NCBI GenBank assembly: GCA_030017685.1
Contig: JASEHH010000033.1
Coordinates: 1 to 33,742 of the forward strand
Length of the DNA stretch: 33,742 nucleotides
Direction of reading: 5' to 3'
From: Thermodesulfobacteriota bacterium
Lineage (GTDB): Bacteria; Desulfobacterota; BSN033; UBA1163
In this document: positions 22,619 through 33,628 of the stretch, one piece after another
Numbering within the stretch: the first letter of the stretch is position 1
How the letters are laid out: each line of letters opens with the position of its first letter
Notes under the pieces: model-generated
Database searches by the model: none
Seen by the model: only the letters and a program-made list of their open reading frames with translations
What the model was told of the DNA's origin: nothing
Translations under genes and position numbers: made by a program

Positions 22619-24637
22619 TTGACCAGAAAGATTAAAAGATCGGTCTGCCCCTATGATTGTCCGGATGCCTGCGGCCTTCTGATAGAGGTGGTTGACGGAA
22701 AAGCGATCAAGGTCACTGGCGATCCTGACCATCCATTTACAAGGTCCACTCTCTGCCCCAAAATGAATCGGTACCAGGAGACGGTCCACTCCCCGCTTCG
22801 CCTTACCCGCCCTCTCCTCCGGACAGGAGAAAAAGGCACGGCCCAATTTCATCCCATCTCCTGGGAAGAGGCGATTGACCGGATTGTCAATCACTGGCAG
22901 GGTATCATCAAACGCTCTGGAGCAGAAGCCATTCTCCCCTACTCCTATGCCGGAACCATGGGGCTCATTCAGAGAAACGCCGGACATCCTTTCTTTTACC
23001 GAATGGGAGCCTCCCGCCTCGAACGCACGATATGTTCTCCTGCCAAGGAAGCAGGCTGGCAAGCGGTGATGGGAAACACCCCTGCCCCTCATCCTGATGA
23101 GGTGGCTGAGAGCGATCTTGTAATCTTATGGGGAATCAATGCCGTCGCAACCAACATCCACTTCCTGCACGGCGTGAAAATAGCTCGAAAAAAAGGAGCC
23201 AAGGTCTGGCTGATCGATACCTATAAAACCCTTACCTCTTCTGTTGTGGACCAAACCTATATCGTTCGGCCGGGAAGTGATGGCGCGCTTGCCCTGGGCT
23301 TGATGCATCTTCTGGTCCGACACAGTCTCATCGATAATGATTTTTTAGCTGCTCATGTGCAGGGTTTTGAAGAATTGAAGGAGAAGATCCTCCCTGACTT
23401 TCCGCCCGAAAAAGTAAGCCGCCTTACAGGACTCTCTCCTGAAACTCTCGAATCTACGGCCAAAGCCTATGGCAAGGCAAAAGCTCCATTGATCCGGCTG
23501 GGAAGTGGTCTTTCCCGGTACGGAAACGGGGCGATGAATGTGCGTACGATTGTCTGTCTGCCTGCCCTTGTCGGAGCTTATGGAAAGAGAGGGGCCGGAT
23601 GTTTTACAGGCACCAGTACTGCAGAAGCCTTTGCCATGAGTGAGGTCTTTCGAGAAGATTTCATGAAGGGGAAGACCCGTATCGTCAACATGAACCGGAT
23701 CGGCTGGGCTTTAAATGAGATTCAGAATCCACCTATTCAAAGCCTTTATGTCTATAGCTCCAACCCTGCAGCAGTTGCTCCGGATCAGAATCAGGTCTTA
23801 AAGGGTCTGGCAAGGGAAGACCTCTTCACCGTAGTTCACGAGAGGTTTCTCACGGATACGGCCCGTTATGCGGATATGGTGCTTCCTGCCACCTCTTCTC
23901 TGGAACAGAGTGACCTCTATCGGTCCTACGGCACATACTGCATCCAGCGCGCAAAACCGGTCATCCCTCCTGTAGGGGAGAGCAAACCGAACTGGGATGT
24001 CTTCTGCCTTCTTGCCAGGGCAATGGGATTTGATGAACCCTTTTTCCATCAAACTGCCGATGACCTCATCGACCATCTGCTTTCCCTTCCCGCTCCGATG
24101 AGAAACGGTATTGACCTGAAAGCCTTTTCTACAGGGAAGGCGGTCGAAATTCCTCTTCCATCAGATGCACGAATCAGGTTCAGGACCCCTTCCGGAAAAG
24201 TTGAACTCCTCAACCCAAAACAGTCTCATCCCCTTCCTCTCTACATTCCTCCTTATGGCGGCGATGAGCCCTTCTATTTGATGGCAGCCCCGAGCTTCTA
24301 TGCCTTAAACTCCTCCTTTCGCGAGCGGGCCGACCTTCTAAAAAAAGAGAGGGGCATGCTCCTTAAGATGAACCCCGCTGATGCAGAGGGAAAAGGGTTC
24401 AAGGAGGGTGATCCTGTGATCGCTTTCAATTGGTTAGGTGAGGTTTCTTTTGTCCTAAGCGTTACCCCCGATGTTCCGCAGGGGGTTGTGGTGGCAGAAG
24501 GGGTTTGGTGGCTGGAACACTCTCCGGGTCCCCGTTCTGTCAATGCCCTGACCTCCCAGCGCTTGACAGACCAGGCCCATGGAAGCACCTTCTACGACAA
24601 TACCGTGGACGTGAGGCCCGATCAAAGAGAGCTCTGA
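22619..24637 (+). CDS. Cytoplasmic molybdopterin oxidoreductase
   Basis: Member of the DMSO reductase superfamily with 672 residues and no Tat signal, so it acts in the cytoplasm. The N-terminal Fe-S motif is CPYDCPDAC (C10, C14, C18) with the fourth cysteine at C46 (STLCPKM). The metal ligand is probably C139 in RTICSPAKEAG. Further family blocks are PGSDGALALGLMHLL, DTARYADMVLPATSSLEQSDLYRSYG and the C-terminal dinucleotide domain (KMNPADAEGKGFKEGDPV). It is closest to YoaE/BisC-type oxidoreductases of unknown substrate. The start is TTG at 22619, chosen because a strong AAGGAGG site precedes it. No electron-transfer subunit lies nearby, so a soluble ferredoxin or NAD(P) partner is likely. 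Confidence 0.82.
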   Translation: MTRKIKRSVCPYDCPDACGLLIEVVDGKAIKVTGDPDHPFTRSTLCPKMNRYQETVHSPLRLTRPLLRTGEKGTAQFHPISWEEAIDRIVNHWQGIIKRSGAEAILPYSYAGTMGLIQRNAGHPFFYRMGASRLERTICSPAKEAGWQAVMGNTPAPHPDEVAESDLVILWGINAVATNIHFLHGVKIARKKGAKVWLIDTYKTLTSSVVDQTYIVRPGSDGALALGLMHLLVRHSLIDNDFLAAHVQGFEELKEKILPDFPPEKVSRLTGLSPETLESTAKAYGKAKAPLIRLGSGLSRYGNGAMNVRTIVCLPALVGAYGKRGAGCFTGTSTAEAFAMSEVFREDFMKGKTRIVNMNRIGWALNEIQNPPIQSLYVYSSNPAAVAPDQNQVLKGLAREDLFTVVHERFLTDTARYADMVLPATSSLEQSDLYRSYGTYCIQRAKPVIPPVGESKPNWDVFCLLARAMGFDEPFFHQTADDLIDHLLSLPAPMRNGIDLKAFSTGKAVEIPLPSDARIRFRTPSGKVELLNPKQSHPLPLYIPPYGGDEPFYLMAAPSFYALNSSFRERADLLKKERGMLLKMNPADAEGKGFKEGDPVIAFNWLGEVSFVLSVTPDVPQGVVVAEGVWWLEHSPGPRSVNALTSQRLTDQAHGSTFYDNTVDVRPDQREL

Positions 24638-24740: not shown

Positions 24741-25364
24741 TCAATGATTACGTTTTTTAGCGCCGAAGTTTATTAGGAATTGTTCCAGATCTTCGTAAGG
24801 CTGGAATCCAACGGCCACACGGTGATCGACCAAAAAGGTTGGGACTCCTGTGATTCCAAGGGCACGTGAACGAGACCAGTCGGAATCCACTGCCTCCTTA
24901 AAGGTTCTCAATCCAAGAACAGATTTTGCCTCCTTGCCTGAAAGGCCTATCGATTTTGCCAGATCGACTATTTCGTTAACTTTGCCTATATTCTTACCAT
25001 CGACAAAATAGGCTCGAAAGACAGTCTCGTGAAATTCGTCTCCCCTTCCCTTCGATTCTGCCCACTTTGCCAATTCCTGAGCAAGTCGGCTATTGTAGGT
25101 CTTTTTTCGCTCACCGATAGGCAAACCTAATTCATCCGCCACTTGCTTCAACCGGGCCATGATCTTCTTAATGTCTTTGGGCTGTCCAGCGAAGAGTTCT
25201 TCAAGAGTGAGCCCCTCTTCCGGCGTCTCGGGATGAAGAGGAAAAGCCGCCCAACGAACTTCGATGTCATAATTCTTTCGCAATTGCTCAATACGCACGG
25301 TACTGAAATAGCACCAGGGTCAAACATAATCGGAGAAGATCTCCAGAATCACCGGCTCATTCAT
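24741..25364 (-). CDS. DsbA/FrnE-family thiol oxidoreductase, apparent selenoprotein (UPWC)
   Basis: The reverse-strand frame starts at ATG 25364 behind AAGGAG and reads MNEPVILEIFSDYV, then TGA (25322-25320), then PWCYFSTVRIEQL and the rest of a DsbA-like domain with the inserted helical region of the FrnE type. Family members have CPWC here, so TGA replaces the first active-site cysteine, giving U15-P-W-C18. The remaining 192 residues are intact, including the cis-proline segment TGVPTFLVD. A hairpin suitable for selenocysteine insertion follows the TGA. A conventional annotation would start at 25298 and lose the active site. Role: thiol-disulfide exchange, faster with selenium; cytoplasmic, as no signal peptide is visible. 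selA, selB and selC are not in the window. Confidence 0.8.
25280..25312 (-). promoter_or_regulatory. Candidate bacterial SECIS hairpin
   Basis: In the message, UCAGUAC (25306-25300) pairs with GUAUUGA (25294-25288) around the loop CGUGC; below it GCUAUU (25312-25307) pairs with AAUUGC (25285-25280) with one mismatch, after a 2-base bulge. The loop G at 25298 is 22 bases after the UGA, inside the usual 16-37 range, and is followed by U, as bacterial SECIS loops prefer. Confidence 0.6.
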
Positions 25365-29738: not shown

Positions 29739-30836
29739 TTATTTTAAGAAGTTTTGCTTCAATAGATCAAAACGTTTTTGTGCATAGCTGAAAAATTCCT
29801 TGTAGGCATCACAAAGATAATTTTTCCCATCAGATAAGCGATAATGCTGACATCCGGAATGACATATAAAATTCCACTTACAGCTATGGCATCCGGAGGA
29901 TTGCTGAATTTTACGGCTGTTGAATGTCTGCATCTTCCGGTTTTTAATAATTTCATGAATCGGCGTTTCAAGCAGGTTTCCCGCCATCCATTGGTCTTCC
30001 ACAAAAAAATCACAGGGATATACATCCCCGTTATATTCGATCACAACGTAACTGCCGCACTGATTTTGGAATGCACATATCTCGGGATCCATCCCCATAG
30101 AGACGGCCAGAATATTCTCGAAAAGCCTTATTGAGGCAAGGGGTTTCCCTTTGTTATACCAGACATCAAAAAGGGAACAGAGAAAATCCCTGTAATTCTC
30201 AACACTGACAGAGTAGCCTTTCATTTCCTGCGTATCTCTGTCAATCTCCACACAGGGGATGAACTGCAAAAAATAGAGTCCATTTTTTATGAAAAAATGA
30301 TAGAGCTCCGCCGGTCTCTTAACCGTCACATCATTGAGGACGGTGAGAATACTGAATTCCACCTGATGATCCCTGAGGGTCTGGATTCCTTTCATCGCCT
30401 GGTGAAAGCTGTTATGACCGTTTAGCGAATGGCGGTAGGTGTTGTGATATTCTTCAGTACCATCCAGGCTCAAACCGATGAAGAAGTTATAACGTCTGAA
30501 GAACCTGGCCCATTCGTCGTTGAGTAACGCGCCGTTGGTCTGCAAGTTGTTGCTGACGAGCTGTGCCGACAAACCATATCGTTGCTGATAGTCCACTACC
30601 CTTTTAAAAAAATCGAGGCCGGCCAGAAGGGGCTCCCCACCCTGCCAACCAAATGAGGCGCTTCTTCCGGCTGATTTCATATATCCGGATATCATGGTTC
30701 GGAGGGTCGTATCGTCCATGACAGGATGCTCTTCGGAACGATACGGATCGCCGGGTCGTATATAAAAGCAATATTGACATCGCATATTGCAATCTGCGGA
30801 TACAGGTTTTATCAAAAGGCTCAGCTCGCCCGCCAT
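29739..30836 (-). CDS. Radical SAM/SPASM maturase, anaerobic sulfatase maturase (anSME) type
   Basis: Protein of 365 residues. The radical SAM cluster motif is CNMRCQYC (C16, C20, C23); the GGEPLL SAM-binding segment and LSLDGTEEYHN follow. The C-terminal SPASM domain has the cysteines expected for two auxiliary clusters (ICAFQNQCGSYV, YPCDFFV, SGCHSCKWNFICHSGC, YLCDAY). Such enzymes oxidise a cysteine or serine in sulfatases to formylglycine under anaerobic conditions. No sulfatase with CxAxR or SxAxR is present in the window, so the substrate may be elsewhere, or this may be a related peptide maturase. A weak AAAGG site precedes the ATG. Confidence 0.85.
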   Translation of the reverse strand: MAGELSLLIKPVSADCNMRCQYCFYIRPGDPYRSEEHPVMDDTTLRTMISGYMKSAGRSASFGWQGGEPLLAGLDFFKRVVDYQQRYGLSAQLVSNNLQTNGALLNDEWARFFRRYNFFIGLSLDGTEEYHNTYRHSLNGHNSFHQAMKGIQTLRDHQVEFSILTVLNDVTVKRPAELYHFFIKNGLYFLQFIPCVEIDRDTQEMKGYSVSVENYRDFLCSLFDVWYNKGKPLASIRLFENILAVSMGMDPEICAFQNQCGSYVVIEYNGDVYPCDFFVEDQWMAGNLLETPIHEIIKNRKMQTFNSRKIQQSSGCHSCKWNFICHSGCQHYRLSDGKNYLCDAYKEFFSYAQKRFDLLKQNFLK

Positions 30837-31949: not shown

Positions 31950-32327
31950 ATGGATACTGTCAAGCAACTGGAAGCCCGGCGTAATAGAATCCTTGAAGAA
32001 ATGCGTTCCATTCGATCCATGAGGCGCGGGACCATCAATGAACAATATTTCAAAACCCGCCTCAAAGGAAGAAAAGGGATGGTGCACCAAGGCCCTTATT
32101 ATATTTTGTCCAGGCGGGAAGAGGAGAGGACGGTCAGCAGGCGTCTTCGATCGGCGGCCGAACTGCAACAGGCGCAAAAGGATGTAGCCGAATACAAGAG
32201 ATTTCTTGGGCTTTGTCAGGAATTCGAACAATTGACGGCACGTCTTGGAGCATTGGAGAGAGGCGGACAGGGTTTGGAGCAGGAAAAAAAACGGTTCAGA
32301 TCATCATCGAGCAAGACGGAGAGATAA
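31950..32327 (+). CDS. ISKra4 first frame (DUF6788-type)
   Basis: Frame of 125 residues starting MDTVKQLEARRNRILEEMRS after an AAGGAGG site. It contains RRGTINEQYF and HQGPYYILSRREEERTVSRRL, the pattern of the small DUF6788 proteins found with transposons, and a coiled-coil-like N-terminus. It overlaps the transposase frame by 115 bases. The last 11 residues after EQEKK are probably read only when the ribosome does not shift at the A8 run. Its own role is unknown; it could bind DNA or regulate transposition. Confidence 0.75.
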   Translation: MDTVKQLEARRNRILEEMRSIRSMRRGTINEQYFKTRLKGRKGMVHQGPYYILSRREEERTVSRRLRSAAELQQAQKDVAEYKRFLGLCQEFEQLTARLGALERGGQGLEQEKKRFRSSSSKTER

Positions 32328-33628
32328 GACGGATTCTCGATAAGGTGGCAGAGTCCAAGCATGCAGACTTGGAGGCATGGGAGACAGCGTTGCGGGCTGC
32401 GGTTCTGTCTGCGGGGGCCAAAGTTCTTGAGCAGCTGCTCCAGGGGATTGGCTCGGGTCGAGAGCCCCGAGCCATTATTTGCAAGTGTGGTGCACGGATG
32501 GAGAGTCAAGGATTGAAGCATAAGGAGGTGTTGACAATCCTTGGCCCTGTCACCTACTGGCGTTCGATGTTTCAATGTCCCGCTTGCCAAAGCACGCGGT
32601 ATCCTGGTGACGAGGAGTTCGACATTATGGAGACGACCCGTTCACCGGGGCTACGCCGAATGATGGCTCGAGCTGGAAGCCGCTCCACATTCAAAGAGGG
32701 ACGTGATGATCTTAAGATTTACGCAGGGATAGAAGTGAGCGCCAAGGATATTGAGCGAGTGGCCGAAGGCATCGGCCAACAGATGGACGCCTGGGTGTCT
32801 CAAGAGCGAAAGGAGATCTTACAAGATCATGGGCTGTTACGGCCTGAAAAAACCATTCCCATCCTCTATATCAGCTATGACGGGACTGGAGTGCCGATGA
32901 CCCAAGAAGAACTCACGGGCCGTAAAGGTAAACAGGTCGATGGTTCAGCAAAAACTCGTGAAGCGAAACTGGGATGTGTCTTTACCCAGACGACGACAGA
33001 TGGCAGGGGATTTCCTGTGCGTGATCCCGATTCGACCAGCTTCGTCGGGGCGATTGAGTCTGCAGAGGACTTTGGTTGGCGGATTTATGGAGAAGCGGCG
33101 CGTCGGGGTTTATCCAAAGCCGAACGGGTGGTCGTTTTGGCAGATAGTGCGCAGTGGATCAAGAACCTGGCACAGATGCACTTCCCAGAAGCGACGATCA
33201 TTATCGATCTCTACCATGCTCGGCAACATGTCTCTGAGTTATGCAAAACTCTCTTTGTCAGAAATGAGAAAAAGATTAGACAACAGCGCATTCGCTGGTG
33301 GACGGACTTAGATGACGGAAAAGTAGAGAAAATCATTCGCCAAACACAACAGCTCCTGCCTCAAGATGCTGAAGCCAAGAAGAAAGCGGAAACAGAAATA
33401 CATTATTTGGAGAAGAATACAGAATATATGCGCTACGCGGAGTTCCGTGCCCAAGGCTTATTTGTCGGTTCCGGCGTGGTCGAGGCTGGATGCAAGACCC
33501 TTATTGGTCAGCGCCTAAAACAGTCTGGAATGGAATGGTCGGTCAGGGGAGCCAACGCCATTATTTCCCTGCGATGCATCCTCACGTCCGGCCGCTTCGA
33601 AGACTACTGGGAGTCACGGGCGCTATAA
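32213..33628 (+). CDS. ISKra4-family transposase (UPF0236)
   Basis: Transposase of the ISKra4 family with a zinc-binding section (ICKCGARM, FQCPACQS) and a DDE-type core: YISYDGTGVPM, then LADSAQWIKN and IIDLYHARQHV, and a C-terminal VGSGVVEAGCKTLIGQRLKQSG. ELTGRKGKQVDGSAKTREA is the family hallmark. The frame is open from 32213, but there is no ribosome site; the residues before TVQIII are probably not translated from there. The likely product is the fusion with the first frame by -1 slippage at 32285-32291, giving about 559 residues. Confidence 0.88.
   Translation: MSGIRTIDGTSWSIGERRTGFGAGKKTVQIIIEQDGEIRRILDKVAESKHADLEAWETALRAAVLSAGAKVLEQLLQGIGSGREPRAIICKCGARMESQGLKHKEVLTILGPVTYWRSMFQCPACQSTRYPGDEEFDIMETTRSPGLRRMMARAGSRSTFKEGRDDLKIYAGIEVSAKDIERVAEGIGQQMDAWVSQERKEILQDHGLLRPEKTIPILYISYDGTGVPMTQEELTGRKGKQVDGSAKTREAKLGCVFTQTTTDGRGFPVRDPDSTSFVGAIESAEDFGWRIYGEAARRGLSKAERVVVLADSAQWIKNLAQMHFPEATIIIDLYHARQHVSELCKTLFVRNEKKIRQQRIRWWTDLDDGKVEKIIRQTQQLLPQDAEAKKKAETEIHYLEKNTEYMRYAEFRAQGLFVGSGVVEAGCKTLIGQRLKQSGMEWSVRGANAIISLRCILTSGRFEDYWESRAL
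32284..32291 (+). promoter_or_regulatory. Slippery A8 run for -1 frameshifting
   Basis: In the first frame the codons are GAA AAA AAA CGG; in the transposase frame GGA AAA AAA ACG. The heptamer A-AAA-AAA followed by C is a classic slippery site, and a slip of -1 there joins the two frames without stop. Confidence 0.6.

Follow-up and report, generated by a model that had tools for sequence, protein, structure and literature searches.

The best match of the protein considered here, by sequence and by fold, is FrnE of Deinococcus radiodurans (DR_0659; PDB 5cnw, 5co3 and 5cp1), which carries a CPWC active-site motif. In the account given in PMC8945050, this protein is predicted to be cytoplasmic, has isomerase and insulin-reduction activity, and reduces DTNB in the presence of NADPH and thioredoxin reductase, while the frnE mutant is sensitive to cadmium and diamide. 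A C-terminal CxxxxC pair of Deinococcus FrnE is proposed there to regenerate the active site. Since the same account describes an additional CXXXXC in many FrnE members and other named FrnE proteins without it, the pair is not strictly defining for FrnE (PMC8945050).

Selenocysteine-containing proteins of this general kind have also been described. COG2761 is given as the group to which D. radiodurans frnE is assigned (PMC1978522), and a 2005 survey of the Sargasso Sea lists nine DsbA-like UxxC selenoproteins under that group (PMC1088965). Further DsbA-like selenoproteins are reported from two Deltaproteobacteria genomes and one Clostridia genome (PMC1794560) and listed in GOS data (PMC2398784), and a 2026 review includes a 'DsbA-like protein form 1' with PF01323 and UxxC (PMC13188914). 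By these accounts, the published examples come mostly from marine metagenomes (9 in PMC1088965; 63, 18 and 5 in PMC2398784), with 4 from bacterial genomes (PMC1794560). Set side by side by description, the Sargasso Sea and GOS proteins share PF01323 and the UxxC placement with the protein described below. Our literature searches found no paper combining UPWC with selenocysteine and none besides PMC1088965 combining 'selenoprotein' with COG2761; the matches for FrnE together with selenoprotein, judged from their listing, included none on a bacterial FrnE.

The window, the whole stretch of 33,742 nucleotides analysed here, contains on its minus strand a DsbA/FrnE-type reading frame of 207 residues (24741-25364) that very probably encodes a selenoprotein. 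The frame starts at the ATG at 25364 and ends at a TGA stop codon (24743-24741). Six bases before the ATG lies the ribosome-binding site AGGAG (25375-25371), the good ribosome site that the original prediction had placed there. Codon 15 is an in-frame TGA (25322-25320) standing, as predicted, for the first cysteine of a CxxC motif, so that with TGA translated as U the N-terminus reads MNEPVILEIFSDYVUPWCYF and the active-site motif V-U-P-W-C-Y. Cys18 of this motif (TGC, 25313-25311) is the sole cysteine of the protein apart from U15, and the U/C15 and C18 pair is invariant in a 60-row alignment. Pro175 (codon 24842-24840, in V174-P175) is likewise invariant in the 60 rows, and we take it to be the cis-Pro position of the thioredoxin fold.

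The mechanical list of open reading frames holds only a 185-residue frame in this place (24741-25298), and because that frame starts at an internal GTG, the active site is lost, which is the truncation expected of a standard gene call. The listing of this frame would agree with a reading in which translation truly ends at the TGA and a 185-residue protein without the active site is made from the GTG at 25298. We give that reading negligible probability: the codon at this place is GTG in 14 of 49 TGA-bearing rows and GGG in 32, conservation extends to residues before the TGA (D12 is invariant in the 60 rows, F10 and Y13 nearly so), and AGGAG sits before the upstream ATG. A gene caller that stops at the TGA would miss the active site of a recurrent redox enzyme. 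NCBIfam release 20.0 has no model over its cut-off for the window protein; the best match among the 60 members scanned is to NF041057 (Rcas_1661 family thioredoxin-like (seleno)lipoprotein; E 5.7e-12), which scores 35.8 bits against a cut-off of 190 bits and covers residues 109-196 only. Annotation therefore probably truncates or misnames the gene.

Assignment to the DsbA/FrnE family holds at the level of both sequence and fold. Residues 7-197 match Pfam DSBA (PF01323, E 3.6e-37), and Deinococcus FrnE is the first match both by profile (E 8.6e-34) and by single sequence (E 1.1e-23). An AlphaFold model built on the 60-row alignment (mean pLDDT 97.1, pTM 0.92) has FrnE 5co3 as its closest solved structure (TM 0.88, E 5.7e-15), followed by a Streptomyces DsbA-like protein, YjbH, HCCA isomerases, DsbM and kappa-class GSTs. 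The window protein thus has the PF01323 domain and FrnE as best match that mark the FrnE subfamily, with selenocysteine for the first cysteine. At 207 residues it is shorter than D. radiodurans FrnE, whose PDB sequence has 260; it has UPWC where that protein has CPWC, and lacks the C-terminal CxxxxC pair, which is absent from all 49 TGA-bearing rows as well. By eye, there is no room for a signal peptide, with selenocysteine at residue 15 and strand 1 beginning at residue 5. Given the apparent lack of a signal peptide and the missing CxxxxC pair, the product is most likely, by analogy with Deinococcus FrnE, a cytoplasmic thiol-disulfide oxidoreductase. DsbM of Pseudomonas aeruginosa (5hfg and 5hfi), titled a cytosolic disulfide reductase, has the DsbA fold in common with it (TM on query 0.66-0.69) at 19-20% identity; DsbM is a Cys enzyme.

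The DsbA-type fold is also shared with 2-hydroxychromene-2-carboxylate (HCCA) isomerases and kappa-class GSTs, and a selenoprotein with GSH-dependent isomerase or transferase chemistry, and not protein disulfide exchange, could be envisaged. These proteins appear among the fold matches with TM on query of 0.71-0.78, after FrnE, the Streptomyces DsbA-like protein and YjbH, and by profile an HCCA isomerase (E 4.3e-10) comes behind FrnE and the Streptomyces protein. FrnE is nevertheless far ahead of the HCCA isomerase in both sequence (8.6e-34) and fold. The five HCCA-type loci among the relatives (L213-L217, from four genomes of the phylum) form a group apart in the tree, and all five have serine at the place of residue 15, where the window protein has U; serine at this active position marks HCCA isomerases and kappa GSTs, and in HCCA-type proteins it serves GSH chemistry. 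The invariant pairing of U or C with C18 in the 60 rows also argues against such a role, which we consider improbable, and we retain thiol-disulfide exchange as the preferred reading.

As the original prediction had proposed to check, homologues were aligned to compare CPWC with UPWC. In a set of 112 loci (L023-L134, one of which does not cover codon 15), residue 15 is encoded by TGA in 53, by TGT in 30 and by TGC in 28, and nothing else occurs; homologues thus have Cys or Sec opposite the in-frame UGA, as is required of a bacterial selenoprotein. The 53 TGA loci represent 49 distinct proteins, and the ratio of 53 TGA to 58 Cys loci is not a frequency, because one of the samples of relatives was drawn with a query pattern carrying Cys at residue 15 (best 80 of 133 kept), which favours Cys relatives. 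All 32 loci L023-L054 have the TGA within a UPWC motif. At the level of the UBA1163 family, the gene was found in 7 of the 17 genomes searched, each time with one TGA in the gene (7/7). The nearest named record, from the metagenome-assembled genome Deltaproteobacteria bacterium CROMO_BS_46_3 (L055), is 93% identical, and exactly the same protein as in this record occurs in G006, which belongs to the window's genus; L055, L056, L059 and L068, being identical to other proteins, were dropped before the codon-entropy and tree analyses. Additional loci, 40 in number and in 38 cases chosen for a reported TGA, comprised 38 TGA and 2 TGC, and another 20, of which 19 were chosen for having no reported stop, comprised 14 Cys, 5 Ser and 1 TGA.

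The source genome (G000; 3.96 Mb, 92% complete) is a single draft in 326 contigs, which would permit the TGA to be a sequencing error or the gene a decaying pseudogene. The same TGA at codon 15 in 53 loci and 49 distinct proteins, a frame that is open on both sides of it, and a conserved downstream hairpin leave this explanation hardly any probability.

That hairpin, a putative bSECIS element, lies at 25306-25288 on the minus strand, 14-32 bases after the TGA. Counted from the T of the TGA, it consists of seven pairs joining columns 17-23 with columns 29-35, and its loop, CGTGC (25299-25295), holds a G 22 bases downstream of the TGA (25298), where the original prediction had located it. Covariation was measured in 46 of the 49 TGA-bearing rows, three identical over 45 bases having been dropped. 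Over the seven pairs (17-35 to 23-29), 93.2% of cells are paired in these 46 distinct rows, and shifting the partner by one to three columns leaves only 19-52% paired. Eleven cells are changed on both sides, against a mean of 2.0 in shuffled alignments, a count reached in none of 500 shuffles. Two of the five hairpin measures do not stand clearly above the shuffles, namely the number of pairs changed on both sides (64/500) and the number of pair types (240/500).

The same columns are paired, with different letters, in two more DsbA/FrnE-type subfamilies that have TGA at residue 15: a UPFC/UPYC subfamily (L175-L189 and L193) and a third, distant UPWC subfamily of VWSDVL-UPWC type (L190-L192, L194 and L218). 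Across the three subfamilies together, 78 distinct rows have 91.0% of their cells paired, against 76.3% in shuffles (0/2000), and at least six of the seven pairs form in 71 of the 78. By group, pairing stands at 93% for UPWC, 89% for UPFC/UPYC and 68% for the distant UPWC rows, of which there are four. Among Cys rows, of which 50 distinct ones were compared, pairing is 54%, and six pairs are found in one row only (L093). Synonymous codon usage gives a parallel picture: in the 49 TGA rows, synonymous codon entropy is 0.45 bits over residues 16-26 against 1.40 elsewhere, and residues 20-24 form the lowest of 202 five-codon windows, whereas the 58 Cys rows have no such dip (1.42 at residues 16-26 against 1.27 elsewhere). 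Judged from the aligned sequences, compensatory changes preserve the hairpin where codon 15 is TGA, whereas the Cys rows have not retained it.

Folding of the mRNA, a check suggested with the original prediction, gave a divided answer: the conserved hairpin can form, at -5.9 kcal/mol, but the minimum free energy (MFE) structure of the folded region is a competing hairpin at -9.5 kcal/mol. The core of the conserved hairpin appears in the single-sequence MFE structure of 28 of 91 TGA rows and 1 of 60 Cys rows, and folding is uninformative here; the case for the hairpin therefore rests on covariation and frozen synonymous sites, and not on folding energy.

The prediction that the organism decodes selenocysteine is borne out by its genome, which contains the full set of selA, selB, selC (tRNA-Sec) and selD genes that a bacterial selenoprotein calls for. 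There is one full-length selB (on C174; 373.9 bits against a cut-off of 242.25), a tRNA-Sec (82.2 bits against a gathering score of 47) with anticodon tca according to ARAGORN, a selA (632.2 bits) on the same contig as the tRNA-Sec (C296), and a pair of selD genes that pass the cut-off (L018 on C295 and L019 on C121). Both selD genes themselves have one in-frame TGA, in a U-x-x-K motif; UxxK is the motif given for selD in PMC13188914.

An open frame with TGA as a residue leaves the identity of that residue unspecified, and under a reassigned code UGA might instead be read as Trp or Cys. Against this stand the complete selenocysteine machinery, Cys as the sole alternative to TGA in the 111 covering relatives, a hairpin that is preserved alongside TGA but not alongside Cys codons, and the window gene's own TGA stop, which together make reassignment scarcely credible. 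Sequencing error, pseudogene decay, an internal start and code reassignment were accordingly all rejected, on the conserved TGA, the upstream residues, the hairpin, the machinery and the gene's own TGA stop.

Across the phylum, selA is over the cut-off in 355 of 395 genomes, and its presence consequently discriminates only weakly. It is present in 68 of the 69 genomes bearing the TGA form and in 13 of the 16 with Cys in the copy read (Fisher p 0.02; counted by hand, G272 being treated as a genome without selA in view of its absence from the matches listed), and the difference between UPWC genomes and all others (47/48 against 308/347) is not significant (p 0.07). In one genome, G208, whose stated completeness is 100%, the TGA gene is present with its hairpin (L157), but no selA, selB or tRNA-Sec exceeds the cut-offs. 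A missing contig, a foreign contig or a recent loss are possible readings of this case.

The original prediction had also called a cytoplasmic FrnE-type scaffold with a UPWC motif an uncommon combination. This does not hold. A search of the phylum matched 114 of 395 genomes (E <=0.001), and codon 15, read in 87 of the 114, is TGA in at least 69 of the 395 sampled genomes: 48 with UPWC relatives, 16 with the UPFC/UPYC subfamily and 5 with the distant UPWC subfamily. With UxxC DsbA-like selenoproteins listed under COG2761 in 2005 (PMC1088965), a DsbA-like UxxC selenoenzyme is a kind of protein known since then and not rare in this bacterial group. The gene is patchily distributed all the same: within the family 10 of the 17 genomes lack a match, as do 281 of the 395 in the phylum.

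In a tree of 107 proteins, the Sec/Cys label needs five changes, at least four of which are forced by well-supported branches. A well-supported branch sets apart a group in which 48 of the 49 TGA rows are joined by six Cys rows (L093; L074; L105, L108, L114 and L123); from their placement, these six read as Sec-to-Cys replacements. One of the six, the Geobacteraceae homologue L093 (L093:3104), has TGT at codon 15 and keeps six of the seven hairpin pairs, likely a fossil bSECIS that outlasted such a replacement. The TGA row L104 (L104:4953) is from a member of the Granulosicoccaceae (Gammaproteobacteria) and lies on a long branch among Pseudomonadota Cys rows, and its letters downstream of the TGA are close to those in Desulfobacterota rows; transfer or a separate gain are possible readings. 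A wider tree of 148 rows (of 167, 19 Cys rows having been thinned), made by a quick method and with many weak deep forks, needs at least 12 Sec/Cys changes. We suggest tentatively, and with rather less than even confidence, that the cytoplasmic FrnE-type enzyme of this phylum is for the most part a selenoenzyme, in which at least three divergent subfamilies (UPWC, UPFC/UPYC and VWSDVL-UPWC) carry Sec and hairpin at the same residue and columns, possibly from one ancient Sec ancestor, with repeated later Sec-to-Cys replacement able to leave a fossil hairpin. The Sec rows, the Cys rows and the likely fossil hairpin make a clean data set on the gain and loss of selenium in cytoplasmic disulfide enzymes.

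Taken as a whole, we are highly confident in reading the gene as one for a selenoprotein from the cytoplasmic FrnE branch of the DsbA family, most likely a thiol-disulfide oxidoreductase using selenocysteine; that the product is a selenoprotein is close to certain. Ribosomes would start at the ATG at 25364 and meet the UGA 14 codons on, where the hairpin at bases 14-32 would recruit SelB with Sec-tRNA(UCA) for the insertion of selenocysteine, and translation would run on to 24741. In the model, U15 directly precedes helix 1 (residues 16-31). On the basis of this fold and of Deinococcus FrnE, Sec15 at the N-terminus of helix 1 may attack a substrate disulfide, with Cys18 resolving the mixed selenenyl-sulfide, in a cytoplasmic reductase. 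The resulting U15-C18 selenenyl-sulfide would then be reduced by a cellular thiol or the thioredoxin system. By the same analogy, we lean modestly towards the reductase direction and this source of electrons.

In the gene neighbourhoods of 101 loci, with flanks of at most 7 kb, no conserved neighbour pointing to a substrate emerges among the first 45 families listed, of which eight were scanned. The neighbour families that recur in many loci are those of the Pseudomonadota Cys relatives, and the others occur in small groups. In the window, a molybdopterin oxidoreductase gene of the Fdh/DMSO reductase-like type (22619-24637, plus strand) stands tail to tail with the selenoprotein gene; its product stays under the cut-offs of all 25 NCBIfam models listed for it, and a molybdopterin oxidoreductase is also near the selenoprotein gene in L055 and L056. 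A scan of the window for in-frame TGAs in motif-like surroundings with at least 60 codons downstream returned 20 places, one of which is the selenoprotein gene; the other 19 were judged by eye to be gene ends or out-of-frame stretches. Elsewhere in the window, an anaerobic sulfatase maturase of the radical SAM type (29739-30836, minus strand) and an ISKra4 family transposase (32213-33628, plus strand) are both over their NCBIfam cut-offs.
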